Assembly: GCA_949317995.1 (NCBI GenBank)
Contig: OX439050.1
Coordinates: forward strand, 52,577,777 to 52,641,776
Length of the DNA: 64,000 bases
DNA from: Acholoe squamosa
Lineage: Eukaryota; Annelida; Polychaeta; Phyllodocida; Polynoidae
Direction of reading: 5' to 3'
Shown: positions 3,300-64,000 of the stretch, piece after piece
Layout of the letters: the number at the start of each line of letters is the position of its first letter
Numbering within the stretch: position 1 is the first letter of the stretch
Position numbers and translations under genes: made by a program
The notes under the pieces: generated by a model
What the model saw: the letters and a program-made list of their open reading frames with translations, nothing else
What the model was told of the DNA's origin: nothing
The model's database searches: none

Positions 3300-4540
3300 T
3301 GATTAACTCTAGAGTTGACAATGACATGACAATGACTAAACAAACTAAAAAATGTGATAAACTATTTACAATCAAGTATCCTCTCCTCTCCATGTGGAAA
3401 GTAAATAACGTCACCATCTCTTGTGTCATTTCATTTGCTTTACATTGCTTCGTTGTTTTCTAGATGGCACACTAGTTCAAAATGATCATGATTTATTCAA
3501 AGTATTTCCACAAAACAAACTACATCATTTTATTTTCATCATACAAATAGTTGTCATATAACTGCTAGATTAAAAGCGTAGTATAAAAAAACCCCACTTA
3601 AAATGATATATTTGCTTAAGATGCAGTCTACCATGTGATGTAATCTTCATATTTTGTCTACCATGCACAAGGAAATGAGCTCTGTGCCTGTGGGTGCAGC
3701 TAAACCATTTGCCCCATTCTTTTTTTCTTATTTAGTTTTCCAACATTCCATGCAGGGCCCTTCCAGCACTGATTGTCACAATGGAGATATCAGTTTGTCA
3801 ATAGGCCATGCCAGTGATGTTTGAATAGCGGACCCTGATTGGTGCAGCCCATCACGTACTGAGGGTAGGGTGACCTTTGTGCTGGATATTTCCTGCCCTT
3901 GTGCTTTCACTATTCCAAGCCAAATAGGAAATAGATTCTTTGTCATATGGCCTGAAAAACTGTTGAAATGTATCGAGGATGATAGCCAGCATATCATCAT
4001 TTTCTTAACAGGGAGCAGTAAATGCATGGCCTTTGGTGTTCCTTTCCTTACAGATAACAATATTGTTGAATGATAACAGCAGAAAACATTAGTCGTTTGA
4101 TCCATGATGCAAATGATTGTGGGCTTATGTATTTGGGAAATAGTGATTCTTTCCCCTAGATGTAACCATGTTTGAATAATAGCAGCAGAAAGCATTAGTT
4201 TGATGATTCATAATGCAAAATTTTGATTGTGGGACTTGTGAGTTACTTCTTAGGCATTGTTTATTTATCAGATGGAAATCACCTTAAAATATTATACCGC
4301 CATCAATATTATTGATAAAGTTGTATGTAATATCATTCGGCTAGCAATGAAATTGTTTCGCCATATAAGAACTAACTCAAACTCACTGTATTTCGCGTTA
4401 ATGCAATTTGACATGAATAACAGCAAGTGGGGACTTCAGTAACCATGGGCACTGGACCTTCAATTCCATCATCCAAGACATTATCTCACTTAGCTCTGAC
4501 TTGGAGATGTACGCTTAGTGAGACAAACTCAAGTATACCT
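3300..4540. other. Non-coding part of block copy 1
   Basis: Bases 3,420-3,760 align to 13,720-14,050. From 3,760 to 4,440 the match to copy 2 fades. Short opposing ORFs overlap here with no conservation and are taken as chance. No RNA gene seen. Confidence 0.5.
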
Positions 4541-5064
4541 TTACCTATGTGCTCATTTCAAGGTAAAAGATGAAGCTCCAACATATAGTAAAATAGCCAC
4601 TAACGATCAACAAATTGTAGAAAATGGAACCAACCACTAGCTGTATTGGGGAATCAATACGTGTGCAGCAAAACAATAAGACGGCCCACAGAGTGTAACA
4701 CAGGTTGCTGGGAGGCAATTGATCCCACTGCCTCATGATGGCCTTGAAGCAAAGCTGCTGATCTACGGCCATATTGTGCACATCTCTAAACCATCAACCC
4801 TCAATACTCTCTATAAATTCCTTCTACTTAAAGCATTACTGAATATGTAAAGCGGTGGCTTTTCTCAACCATGTAACACATTGTTTAGGATATGTTGTGA
4901 CTGTTCTAAAGTTGATTTTCAATGGTTAAGAGCTAGTCTAATTATGCTTGTGTATGTATAAAATATGAGAAGCTTTATCTCAGTATCTAATGGTACTCTC
5001 CAACTGTATAGGAAACAAGAAATTCTTCTTGTGAATATTTCACTGCCATATTTCAGGTGATCCC

Positions 5065-5290
5065 ATTTCCCAAATGATGCCATGTATAACAAGTTGCAAA
5101 TTTGCCAGGAGTCACCCAGTCCTCCTTAGCAATATTGAAATCTATGAGAGCTTGGTGGCAGCCCACTGGGGCCAACTGAAAGGTTATAAGTGGTTCAATG
5201 GATCAGCGGAGACGGAGCTAAAAGTGTCTGCAGATCCACAGAGAAAACTAATGAAGCACACTCATGCCACCAATAGGAGATCCAGCCTTT
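5065..5290. repeat. Conserved ~220-bp module of the block
   Basis: A segment containing GGCCAACTGAAAGG and GGTTCAATGGATCAGCGGAG recurs at 15,125-15,345 and, more diverged, at 19,320-19,520. An open frame covers this copy, but copy 2 has a 4-base deletion in the middle that shifts the frame. Conservation is therefore not at protein level. A second recurring phrase, GATCACACTG followed by AGCTGCTGAT, precedes the module (about 4,730, 14,760 and 18,660; also 7,890). Confidence 0.65.
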
Positions 5291-5384
5291 ACTGACCTTT
5301 GCTATAATCTAGAGCATTTCATGGGGTTGTTCTCTCTTTTTTTATTCTTTCTTCATTTTCTCATGAAGAAATGAAATATCCTCA

Positions 5385-5485
5385 ATGTCTTCCCTCTCTT
5401 TCTACTCTCTCTCTCTCCCTCTCTCTCTTTCTCTCTCCCTCTCTCTCTCTCCCTCTCTCTCTCATTCTCTTTCTCTCTATCCCTA
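5385..5485 (+). repeat. (CT)n / (CTCTCC)n microsatellite
   Basis: About 100 bases of almost pure pyrimidine CT/CCT repeat. The low-complexity Ser/Leu ORF over it is not a gene. The equivalent place in copy 2 (15,540-15,600) is pyrimidine-rich but not expanded. Confidence 0.9.
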
Positions 5486-5599
5486 CCTTTCATTTTCTCC
5501 AAGGTCCATTGCTTTATTACATCAAACACTCTTGTTGGTAAAATTAGCTAAACAGTGTCTTTCTCACAAGCCACCACACAGGTAGAGATTGATTCAGCT

Positions 5600-6640
5600 G
5601 GTCATGTTACCAATGAGGATCCCGTAACTATGGTCACCGTGATGTATACCGAATATTGGATTTTTTTTTGGTCTTGTACATATTTTTGATTCAGGAGGTC
5701 GTGCACAACACAGTTCTGCTCAGAATGAGAGTTTATCTACCATAGAACCCTTTTTATAAGCTGAAATAAGATATAAAGTTTGAGAATTAAGCCTACTATT
5801 GATAAGTTCTGTACTCATAGGTGAGGTTTATAGGCTTGATTCCAATAGAACAATATCAAGACAACAAATTCAAGCCCCAGGTATGGCTTACAGCTACTCA
5901 CATCAGGAGTAGTGCACTTTAAATGTGGGTGTAGCTTACAACTATGTGCGGTTTTAGGGTACTTGTATTAGCCATGGTATATATCGATATTGCAATAGTG
6001 GCCTTCTTTTCACTCAATTATCATCAATATAATATTCATAGATATTTATTGCTTGGCAATTCCAATAGGAAAATATTCTGATTTTGGACGAAATAGTCAT
6101 TTGCATTCTATAATATAAAGATATGCCCAAGCTATTGCATCTTTCTAACCACAAAAAAGGACTACGAGTCATGTGCACTTACATGATGATTCATTAATAT
6201 GCTTAAATGATCCCTAATAAAAGCCATGATTCCTTGCACGGTTTCTGGCAATGATTGTAAAGTATTAGAAACATCATCTTCTGCACACACCTGTGCAACC
6301 CAGAGGTAATTTCACAAGACAGTCCAATGCCTACAAACACTATGAATTGAACGCAGTCTCAATTATTGTGTGCACTGTAATACCGCGCTAAGCTTTTTAC
6401 AGCACATCGCTTTTATTTTTAGAAAACAGTAAGATGTGCTGTAAGTACAAACCTTATGACTCTACAGCAGATCGTGCCGTACCCAGTACACGACAATGCA
6501 CTACATATTTACAATTGGGGCTCAGAGATGATGACTTTACAACTGCTCTGTATGAGTGAGTAAGTAGCAGTCTAATGCCATTAAATCTTTGACTGCTAAG
6601 GTAATATTCATGGCAAGGAAACTACATTACACATCAACTG
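5600..6640. other. Non-coding, part of block copy 1
   Basis: Contains the stretch matched twice in copy 2 (15,940-16,395 and 16,427-16,935), for example around ATTTCACAAGA at 6,310. No gene seen. Confidence 0.5.
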
Positions 6641-56169: not shown

Positions 56170-56810
56170 CGGGGTGTGTTTGCTTGGTTAGATTGTAGAG
56201 GGAGGCGGGACGAGTCCTGGCCCGGGCTGTCTAACATACAGTTTAACATACTTGGGGGGATTCAACTTATGATGTATTTGGCCCTTTTTGGCTTCTGGGA
56301 GCTACAGCAAAATATTTAAAGCCCCATTCTTCTTTATTCTAATCATATTTGATAGAAAACATATAGGGGCTTAAAAAAAGGGCAAATTTGCGTATGTCGG
56401 CCTATTATTTTTAGAGATATAGGCCTTTGAAGGTGAAAATTCACCAAAAAATGTCATTTTTTCACCTTTTCCTCTATGTTCAAGGTCATGTATTATATGA
56501 TAAATCATTTCTAGGACATCCTGATTTATTTTTTCCATAAGGGGTACCTCCTAGCTAATATTTCAATATCGTTCGGAGTTGATTGATCTCGTAAATTTTC
56601 CGCGGGAAGGCCTACTTTGAAAAATGACAGGTTTTCTAACCACCAGGCATATAATAAAAGTAGATTAGCTAGCCTGCTAAAATACTAGCTTTATTCTTAT
56701 AAATAGCCACCATGAAAGGGGTCCTTATAGGGGTCTATTGGGCAGAAAAAAAATTGGCACTACCTTGGAACCCAACATCACCACAGCCATCAACGTAATT
56801 TTCAATTTTG
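56170..56810. other. Upstream flank of the transposase-like gene
   Basis: No ORF. An imperfect inverted pair, GCCCCATTCTTC (56,321) and ATATAGGGGC (56,361), is present. This could include the left end of the mobile element, but no target duplication was found. Confidence 0.4.
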
Positions 56811-56813
56811 AGA

Positions 56814-57912
56814 GTGTGACCAACGCTGAACGGTAATTTTCCTCGATTAATCAATAAATACTTGTCATTTCTATAATTATTCTACCCAAGCTATGTCAAA
56901 ATATGTAGTTTCTCACCACAGAAGTAAAAAAGTGAAGAAAGGTTTCACAGGCTGGCCATAAGGGGGGGTTCTTCGTACGTTTCAGCGTTGGTCACACTTT
57001 CGCGCTGAAATCAGCGCGGGAAAGAAAAACGACTTCCTGTTAACCGGCGGAAATGACCTACATCCAGGTGGCTTTGTAAACAACTCAGAGGAACCCAAGC
57101 TGTGAAACCGGAGCCAATCAAAGCAAATTGTCCTCAACTTTCCATTGGAAAATCACCACAAAGGTAAGGAAATTTGATGAAATTTTCATGAAATGTTGTT
57201 GTGGAAGTGTGCAAGGATATGTAGATTGCTTGTTGTGTACTGCAATGATTTAATTTGGATGCTAGGGGGTAAAAACGATCTGGGAATGAAGTTTCCTAAC
57301 CGCTACGGCCATTGGCTTGCCCGGGATGAGCGATTAGGCTTGGTCCGGTCCCTCTCCCCGGTAGCTTCAGCGTTGGTCACACTTTGCTCGCATGGCCGAG
57401 AACGGTCGAAATAGGTGGAATTTGATGGGATTTTGCTGTAATTAAAGACTGTATCTGTAGATTAGGGTCTGTACTACATCTTAGAATGGTTTAGCACCCT
57501 TTTCCTCCATTTTGAGACAACCCCCGGGCTTTTACGAAGCCAGGGTGGCGAAAATCAGCTGAAAAATACATGTTCTTAGGCCCAAAACTTGCTTATTTTA
57601 CAAATTTTCATGTTTTTTGCATGTTAAAAATCCTGAACAGGCCTCCCCCCATTGTTTTATTCTATTTTGCTCATGTTTGAATGGTCAGCTTTCCCTCAGT
57701 GCAAGCCTATAGGTATTTAACCCGAAAATGTGACCAACGCTGAAGCCGAGTCAAGTTCGGCCCCACGTTCGCCCATACATATACACCGGAGTAAATTCTA
57801 GTCATCATTACTTAGATAGGACTAGTATCTAACCTCCTGGCCACATATATTCACTATTTGACATTTCCCCTCTTCTTTATGGCACATTTTTGAAAGTGTG
57901 ACCAACGCTGAA
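56814..57912. repeat. Cluster of five copies of the 20-bp motif upstream of the gene
   Basis: Motif TTCAGCGTTGGTCACACTTT or near variant at 56,814-56,830 (minus, last three bases missing), 56,981-57,000 (plus), 57,366-57,385 (plus), 57,725-57,744 (minus) and 57,893-57,912 (minus). Identity outside the motif is low, so the core itself is what is conserved. The copies lie in the promoter region and first intron of the gene at 58.4-62.9 kb. Behaviour is like binding sites (transposase subterminal repeats or enhancer sites), not like tandem satellite. Confidence 0.9.
56981..57163 (+). promoter_or_regulatory. Probable promoter and 5' non-coding exon with E2F-type dyad
   Basis: A motif copy (56,981-57,000) runs straight into a dyad of E2F-type sites, TTTCGCGC (56,998-57,005) and GCGCGGGAAA (57,014-57,023), related by inverted symmetry around GAAATC. 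An ETS-like CTTCCTG follows at 57,033. A strong splice donor (AAAG before GTAAGG) at 57,164 would end a 5' exon joining the acceptor TTTTACAG just before the ATG at 58,399. E2F sites suggest S-phase expression. This is inference from motifs. Confidence 0.5.
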
Positions 57913-58398
57913 TCGATAAATTTTGGGCTATAAGGTATGAACGGTACACTTCCACTGCACATATGTCATTCATATTTGGCCATAAGATGGCCCTAAGGTT
58001 CCTCTAACTTATAGAAGTACCAACAAGTACATCCTGAATACTTCCTAAAAAAAAAAAATTTCTGGTGGTTATATTTTTGGTTTTCACAAGGTGTTTGGTC
58101 AGTATTTTTCCGTGTCATGTCTGTATGTGCTCATTTTTTTTCTTATACCTATAGGACATCACTAACATCATATAAATGCCCCATAATGTGTGTTTCCTGC
58201 AATTTGTCACTCATTATTTACATTTTCCACTTGGTACCAAAATTCTCAAAATCTATTAAAAATACCAATTTTATATTTGTAGACTAACCTCGGACATTGT
58301 ATAACATTATATAGACATCGTATATATTTGGAATTATTTTCTGAGGGTTTTTATGTGTTTCTGGCTATATTTTAATCACTATTTGATTTATTTTACAG

Positions 58399-61300
58399 AT
58401 GTCATCAACCAGCTCAGACACAGAGCCAGTGTCTCCAGAGCCGGTCAAAAAGAAGATCGCCATGACGCCCGCGGAACGTAAGCGGAAATCGAGGGCGAAA
58501 CTCAAGATGGTCCGGGGCGAGGAGGCCATCAACATGAAGAATGCGGCGGACATGAGGGACAAGAGAGCTAGGGACAAGCTCACTGACACGCCAGAAGAGC
58601 GTAGGAGGAAGCAAGATCTCTCCAACCTCCGCTCAAACAAGTGTAACGCTAAAAAGGTGTGTTGATCTTCCAGTGGGTTACAGGTAAAAGGTGTACAATA
58701 AGATTCAATAACAAATAGAGAAATCATAGGTATATCAAAATGTAATATTGGTATGGATAAAGTAGTAAGTATGTATTCACATGCATGTTGTATGTACTCA
58801 ATTTCTCATTTCTTTTTCTTATTCAGCGTGAGCGGAAGAGGACGGGGCCAGACCCAGGTGTAGGTACATCTGCGGGACCTGCAGCACCACTGCCAGTGAC
58901 CACACCGTCGGCAGCTCCCGCAGTGGCACCACCCCGCCAGGCTGATGCAGGTACTCCTGCTGGTACCTCGAGCAAGGGCAAGGGCCGTGGTAAGACGAGC
59001 AAGGGCAAGGGCCGTGGTAAGACAAGCGCCACCACGCCTGCCGGTCGCCCTGGCCGAGGACGTGGTGCCAGCATGCCGGTGGCGCTCTTCCTCCACGGAC
59101 AGCCCCGCCCGAAGTACCCACAGGTGTCTGCATCATCGTCTGGCGACACCACCGGTGTAAGTATAATACAAAGGTTCTAGACTTTAAATATTATAAAGTA
59201 AAAAGAAAGCCATCGATTAAAGGGATCTCAATAATAGTGTTTAGCAGTAGCATTTATCTCATTACCTGTACTCATGTGTAAATGTATCTGACTCCTCAGC
59301 ATTAAAACCTTACATTCTATATTGTGTCATTTCAGGAGACCCCAGAGTCACCCGTAGTGGTCGGGTCATCGGACGACAGTGACGTCCCTGTGGCACCTCC
59401 CGTGGAGACTCCGGTCCAGTGCACGCCCTCGTCACCCGTGGTGGAGGAAGAGGAAGCAGCCAGCCGTCGTCCGGTCCGGCAGGTTACGCTTCGGCAAGAA
59501 CCACCAGCCAGGCGTAGCGGCAGGTCGTCCGGAGGGCGGCCAGACTCCTCTTCCCCACCACCGGTCAATGTAGGGATAATGGAAGACATCGCGTAAGTAT
59601 AATTATCACTCACCAGAACTTCATTTATGCATCATGCCAAGATTATGGGTTTGGTATAATTTTTGACAGTCTGCACGATGCTCCAATGAAGTGCTTGTAT
59701 TGTATTATATTAATGAAGAATTTAATTCTTGATAGATTGTCAGTAGTGTGAAAATAGCATCAATAGGAGATTTTAATATGGCCATTCTAAATTTACAGCA
59801 CGATGCTCCGCAAAGACTCCAACGAGTGAAATGTAATTGTACAGTAGTTACAGTAATAGTTGAAATGCATGTTGAATTGTTGCTTGTTGCCTGTTGAAAT
59901 GTTGATTACCTTGAAGTTATCAAATAATTAATGCATGCATGAATTTTCGATACAATATATATATATACATGCATTCGATACAATATATACATGCATTATG
60001 TAGTATCATCAATGTATTTCTTCAATTAACACTCAATTTCAAATAGATAATATATATGTATAGTATAGAATCTCAATTTCTATCGATTCAGCGTTGGTCA
60101 CACTTTCGAAAATATTAGATATTAGTCTAGAACTAACACTAGATCCAATACATTGAATATGAAAAAGCATGAATTAATCAGGCTACTTGATATTTTCCAT
60201 ATGCCACAATGTATTATTGTCAATTCATTACCTTCCAGCCCGTGCATACGGACCGGTGACCAGATGACAACCCCCGGACCGCCCCCCGACACAACACCGA
60301 ACACCCCACCAAACCTGAAGTACACAACGCGAAAAACAACAACACCTAGAACTAACCGCCGCAACTACCAGACACGGGTGTTAGTGGGCAGGGCGGAGGT
60401 CGCAGAACAGGAGGTGGCCAAACTGCGCGCCCAGATCACCAAGGCCACCCGAACCCACGGCGTAGCACGCGAGTCTAAGCGTGTTGCACCGGACGGCGAA
60501 CTACCCCCGGCTGTAGCGCACAGGGAGGAGCGCGTTGCACCGGACGGCGCAGACATCAACACACCAGCTGAGCCAGCAGTCCACCAGGTTTTGCTCCAGA
60601 GCATCACCCAGTTGGACAACCATACAAAGATCAGCCTCCTCCGCCAAGCACTGCCACTTCAAGTCCGTAAGGAAAAGGCTAAGGACTTGGCAGCGATTAT
60701 GGGGGTTGACAAACGTACAGTTGCCAAAGCTCCTGTGGATAAGCCTCACCAGCACACGGTGAAACACGCAGAAAAGGTCAGGCGCGTGGTGGAGTTCTTG
60801 TCAGACCCAGAGAACTCCATCATGCTGCCAGGGAAGAAGGACTATAAGACTGTCAATGGTGTTCAACATCAAAAGAGGAATCTGCGGGACTTTGTATATT
60901 CCCTGGCAGACAAGTTCCAGGAAGCCAACCCTGACCTGGCCTGTCGACGCACAACCTTCTACAAAATCAGGAAGGACCACCCGTGGTTCATTATCGTGGA
61001 AGACCAGCCTGCTAATGAGTGCCTGTGCGAAAAACACCAGAACTTTGTTCTCAGGCTGCGGGCTGCTGGCATCAATGACTGCCCGGATGTCCTAGTGACA
61101 TCTTCCACCTTGGAGCAGTTCACACAGAGATTGAACGCCAAGGTGACGAGTGAGACCATCAAGTACACCACATGGATCCATCAGGCTGTCGTATACGGGA
61201 AGGACAACAAAACAGTGATGAAGCTCCGCCCACACGTTGTTGAGGCGGAGCCTCGTGCTGAGTTCATCAAGACCCTCACCGATGAATTCACCACCATGGC

Positions 61301-62915
61301 TGAACATGTGTCCCGTGCCCGTAACCAACACCGCGTTGTGCGACACCTCAGGGAGAGTCTGTCTTCAGTGGAGGTTACAATCCAGATGGACTTTGCAGAA
61401 AACTGGCTTGTAACATACCCCGATTCGCCACAGAGTGTGTACTACTCCAAGGAGCCAGTGACACTACACCCTGCGGTCATCCACTACAGAGATGAACCCA
61501 CCGGCACCACCAAACACCACTCTCTGGCGATCTGTACTGATGACAGGAAACATGACACTGGTGCCATCCTGGCCTTTCTGCAAGTCCTGGCAGTGTTCCT
61601 CCGTGAAAACCTGCCCGAGGTCAGGATGGTCCACTACGCGTCGGACTCTCCCTCCAGCCAGTACCGGAACATTTCGGTGTTTTCGTTGCTGGTACGCCAC
61701 GAGGAGCTACTTGGCGGTCTCAAAGGTACTTGGACTTACTTTGAGGCGGGCCACGGCAAGGGTCCCTGCGACGGCGTTGGCGCTGCTGCTAAGCGTAATG
61801 CAGACAACCTAGTTGCCAGGGACCACATAATAAGGAACGCAGCGGAGTTCGTCTATGAGGGAAACCAACTCGACAGCCTCGTCCACTATGTCTGTGTTCC
61901 GGTCGTAGACATTGCAGCCGCCCGTCTCACCATGGTCTCAGCAAAAGCAGACAAGGCAGTGAAGGGCACCATGCGTGTGCACGCTGCTGTCCCTGCCGAA
62001 GCCGGAAAGTCACTCGCTGTCCGTGACACATCATGCTTTGACAACTGCTGCTGGGACCATGAAACCTGTGAGTCCAAGCGTGGATGTCCGGGATGGGTGA
62101 CACATCAGCTGAGGTTCATCCACAAGGCCCCTCCCCCACCAGAGCAGACTCGTGGCACGCGGCGGAAGAACACCCGACCCATCCGTGCCCCTGCTGAGAT
62201 GGACGTCGCGGATGCCATCACTCCTCCTCTACCAAAGCAGGGCCTGGTCCAGATGAAACCTCGGCCTGCCAGAGCCCCTGCTGCGGTGGACCCTGACTAT
62301 GATCCGGTCGTTCGCACCACTGCCTGCAAGCGACCCAGGGACGGCTCAGCAGTTGTGGGACGCAAGCACGCCCGAAGTGACCGGGTGCCTACTGCTGCCA
62401 CAACCAACAAAGAGAATGTCGCCCCGTGTGCCGCACGAAAGCGTGCCGCGGAGCGCGTCATCGCCATCCCCACCAAGCAAGTGCGACCAGATCTACCCAC
62501 CTCACCCCTCCAGATCGAGGACGGACCGCCCATGGACCCTCGCGAAAAGATGGTGTATGTACAGGACCAGTACGAGTATGGTGACTACGTCATTGTTGCT
62601 GAACTGCACTCAACAGATTCGTCAAAAGACACATGGTTCCCTGGGAAGGTGAAATGTAGGCACGACGTCGGTTACGAGGTCACCATGATGTTTCGTACCA
62701 AAAAGAAATACAACGAGGAGGAAATCATTCCTGCCTTCCGTTGGCCCAAAGAAGAACTTGTGATGACACTCGAAGTTTCTGACATCCTGGGCAAGGTGCA
62801 CCCACCAAGGAGGTATGGCACCACATCCTACACTGCTGCCTACCTCCTGTCCGAAACCACTTTGGACCTTGCTGACCGGAAACTCAAGAGGAAACGAGAC
62901 GACCTGACCTTGTAA
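58399..62915 (+). CDS. Spliced transposase-like protein (HGKGPCDG family), about 1,173 aa
   Basis: Exons 58,399-58,656, 58,827-59,156, 59,336-59,592 and 60,239-62,915. Junctions use GT..AG (donors GTGTGT, GTAAGT, GTAAGT; acceptors TTCAG, TTCAG, TCCAG) in phases 0, 0 and 2, and every join keeps the frame. Exon 1 has two basic repeats (TPAERKRKSRAKLK, TPEERRRKQ). Exon 2 has a doubled SKGKGRGKT and an AT-hook-like GRPGRGRG; exon 3 is acidic/Ser-Pro-rich. Exon 4 has a possible HTH, CLCEKH (543-548), then an RNase H-like core: MDFAENW (Asp666), YASDSPSSQYRN (Asp751) and HGKGPCDG (His787, Asp793). A Cys-rich CFDNCCWDHETC follows (from 881), then an SH3/Tudor-like region (1,053-1,160). Exons are GC-rich in AT-rich surroundings. 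From memory it resembles multicopy uncharacterised invertebrate proteins. Catalytic assignment is inference. Confidence 0.72.
59812..59833 (+). other. Possible alternative terminal exon
   Basis: An acceptor-like AAATTTACAG at 59,799 would join exon 3 in phase and give ten residues (TMLRKDSNE end) before TGA near 59,830. The product would be the basic/acidic N-terminal part alone, without the transposase core. The pyrimidine tract is weak. Confidence 0.25.
60087..60106 (+). repeat. 20-bp motif copy in intron 3
   Basis: Exact TTCAGCGTTGGTCACACTTT, preceded by ATCGA as in the copy at 57,893. It lies 132 bases before the acceptor of the main exon. Confidence 0.9.
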
Positions 62916-63005
62916 CTGACTGTCGTGCTTCATATCACCCTCCCATATCAATTGTCTATGATATCAGTTGCCTATCCCAGAGGGTTGAGACCATGGTGGC
63001 TGAAA

Positions 63006-63011
63006 AATAAA
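63006..63011 (+). terminator. Polyadenylation signal AATAAA
   Basis: Canonical AATAAA about 90 bases after the stop codon of the transposase-like gene. Confidence 0.6.
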
Positions 63012-63056
63012 CCAGCTACTATAGGCTCAATACATCTGATTTTCCTAATTTATTAA

Positions 63057-64000
63057 CGCTTCAGCGTTGGTCACGTTTTAGTATGTTCATAGTAGAACGC
63101 TTACCATCATAATGTATCTTCCTGTAGGGTGTTAAACTGTTCTATATTGCTTAGTAGAAATGTTTGGCTGGTTCAAAAGGGCAAAATGAGTTATGATGGT
63201 GTATTTTTATGTAAGGTGTGGCACACTCGTAGTTGTAAATCTTGGGGAAAAGAAGTGAAAATTAATTTCAAAGTCATGATACGGACCCTATATGTGCCTG
63301 AAATCTGTATATTTATGCTCTATTTAATAGAGGAAGAGGTTCTGTGCCTTGGAATGTAACAGGGATGTAATCCAATAAGTTATATTGAGTGTATGGTGAA
63401 GTAATCAATATGTTGTCACCGCTTCAGCGTTGGTCACGTTTTAGTATGGTCATAGTAGAACGCTTACCATCATCATGTATCTTCCTGTAGGGTGTTAAAC
63501 TGTTTTGTAATGGTTAGTAGACCACTCAGGCTTGTTTATAAAGACAATATGAGCTACCTTTGTATACTTTTATGTTAGGTGTGGCTCGCTGGTAGTTGTA
63601 AGTCTTGGGGAAAAAAGTGAAAATTAATTTCAAAGTCATGATAGGGACCCTATATGTGCCTGAAATCTGTATATTTATGCTCTATTTAATAGAGGAAGAG
63701 GTTCTGTGCCTTAGAATGTAACAGGGATGTAATCCAATAAGTTATATTGAGTGTATGGTAGAGTAATCAATATGTTGTCACCGCTTCAGCGTTGGTCACG
63801 TTTTCGGGGATTTTGATGAATTTGAGGAGCTTTAGGTAATATGCTTACCAGCCCAATGAATAATGTTTTATGGTGTTAAACTGTTCTGTATTGCTTAGTA
63901 GAAATGTTTGGCTGGTTCAAAAGGGCAAAATGAGTTATGATGGTGTATTTTTTTGTAAGGTGTGGCACGCTCGTAGTTGTAAGTCTTGGGAAAAAAAAGT
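63057..64000 (+). repeat. 362-bp tandem array, each unit starting with the 20-bp motif
   Basis: Units begin CGCTTCAGCGTTGGTCACGT at 63,057, 63,420 and 63,782; the third runs off the window. Unit 2 is very close to unit 1; unit 3 differs in its first 80 bases, then matches again (GTTAAACTGTTCTGTATTGC). The motif variant here is GTCACGTTTT. A 76-codon frame inside unit 1 is not kept in unit 2 and is chance. The array starts just after the polyadenylation signal of the gene. Confidence 0.93.

Follow-up and report, generated by a model that had tools for sequence, protein, structure and literature searches.

Multiple subterminal sites are already known from CACTA, hAT and Galileo transposons, and the joint change of about a dozen scattered sites together with the protein that reads them is an open question. 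CACTA elements such as En/Spm and soybean Tgm have a short motif repeated many times, in direct and inverted orientation, near both of their unequal ends, together with TNPA-like proteins (PMC2613891, consulted in part). In the hAT element Hermes, which also has unequal ends, several subterminal repeats are bound by an N-terminal domain that is distinct from the catalytic core (PMC10368747, consulted in part). Galileo of the P superfamily has THAP sites in its long inverted repeats, including tandem repeats near the ends (PMC3688188, consulted in part), and Kolobok has a 4-bp target duplication and termini of the form 5'-RR and YY-3' (PMC9587614, consulted in part). Here we compare these systems with a transposon, called family A, in a stretch of 64,000 nucleotides from the polychaete Acholoe squamosa (GenBank assembly GCA_949317995.1, contig OX439050.1, positions 52,577,777 to 52,641,776), which as a whole is referred to as the window. 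A repeated motif of this element probably represents the subterminal recognition sites of a cut-and-paste transposon, bound by its own multi-exon transposase.

The family A transposon spans window positions 56,254 to ~65,498, a total of 9245 bp, and the window stops at 64,000. Aligning full elements, as the sequence-only reading had advised, located its ends: homology among copies begins at window 56253 and stops at 65499, and the ends are formed by a 15-bp inverted repeat, GGGGGGATTCAACTT, with GGGGGG termini. Both ends are available for 13 copies, namely the window copy and 12 loci, and 10 of them carry an exact 4-bp target duplication. The duplications are ATAT in six copies and ACTT (window copy), AAAT, AATT and ATAA in one each, and the three copies without one are L012, L017 and L026; some flanks are AT repeats, where a duplication match carries little weight. 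Six further copies (L013, L020-L023 and L027) show no right end within the fetched DNA and were excluded from the 13-copy counts. A first reading with a 2-bp TA duplication was dropped, as moving the boundary by one base gave the exact 4 bp in 10 of 13 copies. Inverted ends and a target duplication of fixed length, both found here, are features of class II cut-and-paste transposons.

Searching the window for the motif TTCAGCGTTGGTCACACTTT with at most three mismatches returned exactly nine matches, none of them in the first 56.8 kb, and 0 of 100 dinucleotide shuffles of the window contained any match. The nine copies reported from the letters alone are therefore real, in both orientations and at the positions given, except that the first starts at 56811 instead of 56814. 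Four further sites lie past the window end, at window coordinates ~64167+, ~64549+, ~64931+ and ~65299-. In total, the window copy has 13 sites. Five form the left group (- + + - -), a single one sits in an intron, six make up a right-hand array with units of 362-382 bp, and the last, which is inverted, is 193 bp away from the right end. The features of the element within the window are as follows.

56254..64000, + strand, continuing to ~65,498: family A DNA transposon (from copy homology, ends and the 4-bp duplication ACTT)
56254..56268, + strand: left terminal inverted repeat GGGGGGATTCAACTT, with its partner past the window end (from copy ends)
56811..56830, - strand: left site 1 (motif search, as for all sites below)
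56981..57000, + strand: left site 2
57366..57385, + strand: left site 3
57725..57744, - strand: left site 4
57893..57912, - strand: left site 5
58399..58656, + strand: predicted exon 1, short basic N-terminal domain, favoured candidate for the motif reader (open reading frame, placed identically by the search with exon 1 as query; splice sites by eye, as for exons 2 and 3)
58827..59156, + strand: predicted exon 2, low-complexity linker
59336..59592, + strand: predicted exon 3, low-complexity linker
60087..60106, + strand: last-intron site
60239..62915, + strand: predicted exon 4, catalytic core (IQMDFAENW, SDSPSSQYRN, FEAGHGKGPCDG) and C-terminal domain (open reading frame, alignment)
63060..63079, + strand: right-array site 1
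63423..63442, + strand: right-array site 2
63785..63804, + strand: right-array site 3, with three more array sites and the inverted terminal site past the window

The flanks of the sites had been described as mostly unrelated. This applies to six of the nine window sites, which a repeat search did not merge into long repeats, but not to the last three, which have related flanks because they sit in the tandem array.

Genome-wide, the core 14-mer CAGCGTTGGTCACA occurs 540 times and CAGCGTTGGTCACG 326 times in 1.48 Gb, compared with two and one occurrences of the respective reversed-pattern controls, and among the first 100 places listed per pattern many are clustered with recurring spacings. The link between motif and element was examined at 19 loci fetched around motif matches (L010-L028) and at L001, L002 and L003, out of 866 genome matches. 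Whole or partial element copies were found at 18 of the 19 loci, the exception being L028, which supports the proposed tie between the motif and the transposase element. As to a spread of the motif away from the gene, which would have spoken against that tie, four solitary or odd sites were inspected (L001, L002, L003 and L028), and of these two lie within diverged relatives and two within one unrelated repeat. This short repeat, tgacCACAGCGTTGGTCACattctcta, includes the 14-mer core and has no element around it (L001:1502 and L028:2706).

At least 10 full-length protein matches, including the window copy, are stop-free and 98-100% identical (51 of 1933 candidates were scored), and for this reason family A was probably active recently. 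The copy number of the right array is variable, and among the matches listed one copy at C2 ~85.9 Mb has nine array sites. Other copies have lost the catalytic exon. They measure 2.76-2.77 kb (L010, L015, L017, L024 and L025), 3.1-4.5 kb (L014, L016, L018 and L019) or 5.2 kb (L026), and these internally deleted copies retain outer sites. Where the intron site is gone as well, left sites, an array site and the terminal one are still present. All 13 copies have the inverted terminal site together with one or more array sites, and 12 of 13 have the left pattern - + + - -; in L018 one left site is missing and the left part is longer. Multiple motif copies near both ends that are kept after gene loss, as seen here, are the feature of our working class, transposon ends with subterminal sites, which is not a superfamily. 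Two of the copies, L012 and L013 (C2 ~3.43 and ~3.45 Mb), are ~24 kb apart and have an identical left flank, and for that reason look like a segmental duplication rather than two insertions.

The sequence-only reading had placed the motif in the promoter, introns and 3' flank of a single gene; the copies turn out to be subterminal sites of one mobile element that encloses the gene. The sites could still be mainly transcriptional, with the protein binding the upstream region, the intron and the 3' flank to regulate its gene and playing no part in end recognition, and the five sites upstream of predicted exon 1 and the one in the last intron would fit this. We consider this unlikely, given that the copies without catalytic exon and intron site keep their left, array and terminal sites, and that the stop codon precedes the right array and the terminal site by 0.15 to 2.4 kb.

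The site cores are also more conserved than their surroundings. Compared with the window copy, 13 of 707 site-core positions differ, against 1164 of 18925 positions in other non-coding DNA, with seven copies pooled and element positions limited to <7900 (an eighth copy, L002, covered no site). The suggestion that the core is selected as a recognition sequence thus gains support, and the protein encoded by the element is the candidate reader that the evidence favours.

Besides family A, there are related families with motifs of their own. A protein search found a second set of proteins at ~77-81% identity, of which three loci were fetched as family B (L029, L030 and L031). The family A motif has no match with at most three mismatches in these three loci, and family B has its own repeated motif, CCTCACRTMCGTAAC. 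The core-residue pattern HGKGxxDG, with 851 matches versus 19 in controls, led to the further families C (L032), D (L033 with L034 and L035), E (L036), F (L037) and G (L038), each again with a repeated motif of its own. Genome-wide, the motif of B has 1740 exact copies (control 17), that of C 1753 (control 20) and that of E 4347 (control 17). The motifs of A, B, C and E follow a common scaffold, NNNNNCGNNNGNNAC, and the D motif falls outside it. L038 had come up in a search for a shared core string as a possible second natural swap and proved to be the distant family G, at 28% identity.

We compared the seven motifs with the seven families in a 7 x 7 test at ≤3 mismatches. Families A to G contain 13, 19, 14, 16, 13, 11 and 6 matches to their own motif (mean 0.02 to 0.26 in 50 shuffles of the own element), a diagonal that arises by construction since the motifs were chosen from the tested loci; the result is the off-diagonal, where all 42 cells have 0 matches. 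It also bears on the proposal that a host protein, such as a transcription or chromatin factor, binds the sites and is exploited by the transposon. Such a factor would suit the site spacing, which resembles chromatin-scale distances, and binding by the element's protein is itself something that we infer. However, seven families with seven motifs and no cross-occurrence are hard to reconcile with one host factor, because a single factor would be expected to see one common motif, and we regard this proposal as very improbable.

Two observations concern the arrangement of the motif in single families. In the last intron of family B, the motif forms a 19-bp tandem run of four to five copies (L029:4423-4518, also in L030 and L031), in the opposite orientation to the lone intron site of family A. 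In family E, many of the first 100 listed places lie in short palindromic sets of up to four sites, spaced 178-192 bp, 14 bp and 178-207 bp (for example C1:21474670-21475068 and C1:22979537-22979935), which look like a high-copy miniature element consisting of little but sites.

Five of the families have a common layout on the left side. The site centres, in bp from the left terminal repeat and with their strands, are the following.

Family A: 569-, 734+, 1119+, 1483-, 1651-
Family B: 398+, 579-, 753+, 955-, 1119+, 1482-, 1651-
Family C: 399+, 579-, 745+, 1130+, 1493-, 1672-, 1895-, 1919-
Family D: 399+, 755+, 1119+, 1140+, 1497-
Family E: 399+, 577-, 751+, 1127+, 1301+, 1480-, 1658-

Counting sites within 20 bp of each other as matched, the agreement of positions and strands has a probability under random placement of 5e-6 for A-B (5/5 matched), 9e-5 for A-C (4/5), 0.018 for A-D (2/5) and 5e-6 for A-E (5/5), where the A-E comparison is partly circular as the left end of E was sought at the position predicted from the layout of the other families. 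The left end of D was placed via a terminal-repeat match. Out of 27 adjacent left spacings in families A to E, 15 measure 164-202 bp and nine 356-385 bp, and three fall in neither class (21, 24 and 223 bp). The more distant families F and G do not share this left layout; on the right side of family F there is a pair at 372 and then 359 bp, with an inversion. Measured from the right end, the centre of the last site is at 193 bp in A, B and D and at 194 bp in C (the right end of E is outside the fetched DNA), which is weaker evidence than the left layout because it is partly explained by the right-terminal 185 bp being related across A, B, D and, more weakly, C. These 185 bp, which in the window copy lie past the window, contain an AATAAA-like run and may hold another signal for the end or one for polyadenylation.

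The DNA between the sites has mostly lost its similarity, with most of it near the identity of random sequence. Ungapped identity is 23.5-33% in the two left intervals tested for all pairs except A-B (38 and 45%), and 31-39% in the last right interval except A-B (48.5%). In several family pairs, however, the local alignment scores between sites are well above those of shuffles, and the outermost left 390 bp and right 185 bp are clearly related, which is why we regard the DNA between sites as homologous and largely saturated. This retention of spacing where the sequence is mostly lost is a clear example of what looks like selection on geometry. Since the sites hold nearly the same places while each family spells the motif differently, the comparison suggests that the protein of each family reads its own address code.

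The repeats might alternatively be a by-product of tandem duplication or of a spreading satellite, never selected as sites. The right array is truly tandem and variable in copy number, and the tandem run in the family B intron would also agree with this. The left sites, in contrast, alternate in orientation between unrelated flanks, the site cores have changed less than the DNA around them, and the motif differs between families at matching places, so that we give this explanation very little credence. The repeats are real and transposon-borne, and they look functional.

The gene itself differs between families A and B in an uneven way. Their catalytic cores are 92.3% identical over 260 amino acids, with a synonymous divergence (dS) of 0.34 in the core and 0.34-0.49 in the exon-4 segments from the start to just past the core. 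In contrast, exon 1 is only 31.4% identical with saturated synonymous sites, and dS reaches 1.16 in exon 2, 1.28 in exon 3 and 1.36 in the C-terminal domain. Sliding identity between the elements is 78-94% over element positions 4000-6250 and 48-69% beyond. We read the A/B gene as a mosaic, in which a younger shared catalytic segment sits within two older backbones, that is, as a natural domain swap. When compared by hand, the motifs of A and B are unlike at 8 of 15 positions, and those of A and C, whose cores share 62.5% identity, at four. Motif identity therefore does not track the core: A and B have nearly identical cores, yet their motifs differ more than those of A and C.

Exon 1 is favoured as the reader because it is short, basic and most diverged. 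Several points weigh against this assignment and against binding by the element's own protein. When A is compared with B, exons 2 and 3 and the C-terminal domain likewise turn out to be old (dS 1.16-1.36), so the reader could instead lie in one of them. Over A, B, C and E, the order of motif similarity does not match that of exon 1, and a simple relation between the two was rejected. Exon 1 of families A to E has no DNA-binding fold recognised by Pfam. Moreover, families C to G are based on one locus each, and the copies in the constraint comparison are not independent, with single-copy Fisher p values from 0.003 (L026) over 0.011 (L027), 0.020 (L016), 0.039 (L018), 0.043 (L003) and 0.066 (L010) to 0.24 (L012).

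With binding by the transposase as the preferred explanation, the mechanism would run as follows. The short basic N-terminal domain of exon 1 would likely read the motif, and several molecules on the left cluster and the right array would draw the ends of the element towards each other. After this pairing, the catalytic core in exon 4 would cut at the GGGGGG ends. Through the sites in the last intron and ahead of exon 1, the protein may in addition regulate its own gene, as the sequence-only reading had raised. Across families, a fixed ruler of one or two ~165-200 bp steps and set end distances was retained, with the spelling of the sites changing at all places together while the ruler persisted. 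Computation shows the element with its ends and target duplication, the layout, the constraint on the sites, the private motifs and the mosaic gene; that the protein binds, through which domain, and that it pairs the ends and regulates its gene are inferred from these.

The step length may be akin to a nucleosome repeat. For the family B motif, the first 100 of 1740 places listed give 52 adjacent spacings below 1 kb, with 0 between 182 and 336 bp, and 22 de-duplicated values are periodic compared with a uniform distribution (p = 0.0008; best period 167, or 174 for all 52), the longer spacings fitting the best period less well by eye. More tentatively, and as a proposal that we ourselves rather doubt, these elements could form a superfamily outside the family libraries searched, whose ends are addressed by a chromatin-scale ruler. 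Family-private sites of ~15 bp would be separated by one or two nucleosome repeats and set at constant distances from the cut sites, and the bound protein would occupy the linkers within an array of phased nucleosomes. The address, made of sites and reader domain, and the engine, the catalytic core, would be modules exchanged by recombination between families, and in this way sister families with almost the same engine could remain orthogonal within one genome.

One genome thus holds at least seven families with seven motifs, five families on a common left layout and one natural A/B swap. The shared layout with private motifs and the swap lift the element above an ordinary new family. In the swap, the catalytic core is nearly constant and the sites and the N-terminal exon differ, making a code between reader and sites directly testable. 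Furthermore, family-private motifs might yield mutually orthogonal transposon ends. A fixed ~180 bp layout across families with private motifs was not reported in the literature that we surveyed by titles and abstract openings, with few subscription papers covered.

Compared with the consulted parts of the papers on the described systems, family A resembles each of them in some features. As in CACTA elements, there are many motif copies near unequal ends, a family-specific motif and a presumed diverged DNA-binding protein (PMC2613891). In CACTA the sites are packed within a few hundred bp, whereas here the left sites extend over ~1.7 kb in steps of one or two times ~165-200 bp, and the putative reader is an exon of the core's own gene. 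The GGGGGG termini and 4-bp duplication, unlike the CACTA termini and 3-bp duplication, argue against membership. Several subterminal repeats and unequal ends are shared with Hermes, and a separate N-terminal binding domain is presumed here (PMC10368747). Hermes, however, has an 8-bp target site, a zinc-finger BED domain and a very short motif, while family A has a 4-bp duplication and a ~15-20-bp motif, and exon 1 of families A to E has no Pfam BED match, so that hAT membership was rejected. Several candidate sites for an N-terminal domain and tandem repeats near the ends are also found in Galileo (PMC3688188), but its inverted repeats are very long, compared with 15 bp and dissimilar left and right subterminal regions in family A. 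The 4-bp duplication and 5'-RR...YY-3' termini are as in Kolobok (PMC9587614); membership was rejected as the duplications are ATAT, ACTT, AAAT, AATT and ATAA, not TTAA, and a C/DxxH motif was not seen by eye in the six-family alignment. We leave the superfamily unnamed because no Pfam, NCBIfam or PDB entry matches the transposase. The Sola superfamily also has a 4-bp target duplication, and we take it to be a possible assignment.

For this, Pfam, NCBIfam and PDB were searched with the 890-amino-acid transposase, Pfam and PDB with the six-row core alignment, and Pfam also with five N-terminal and three C-terminal domains, in all cases with nothing above a curated cut-off. The best weak matches, below the cut-off, were DUF6708 (E 0.0084) and DUF6909 (E 0.043). 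Scans of viral_contigs and genome_contigs with P0001 as the query found no relative. In the protein alignment, D207, D292, E325 and D334 are invariant across the six families A to F, which suits a DDE/D enzyme, but no profile or solved structure matches. By eye, the C-terminal part of exon 4 (window 62540-62900) resembles a Tudor-type chromatin-reading domain (GDY...WFPGKV...), and its B, C and E versions have no Pfam match above the cut-off. Exon 1 of family A as a query gave 66 matches, four at 41-58% identity and 62 at ≥77%, the latter being taken for family A.

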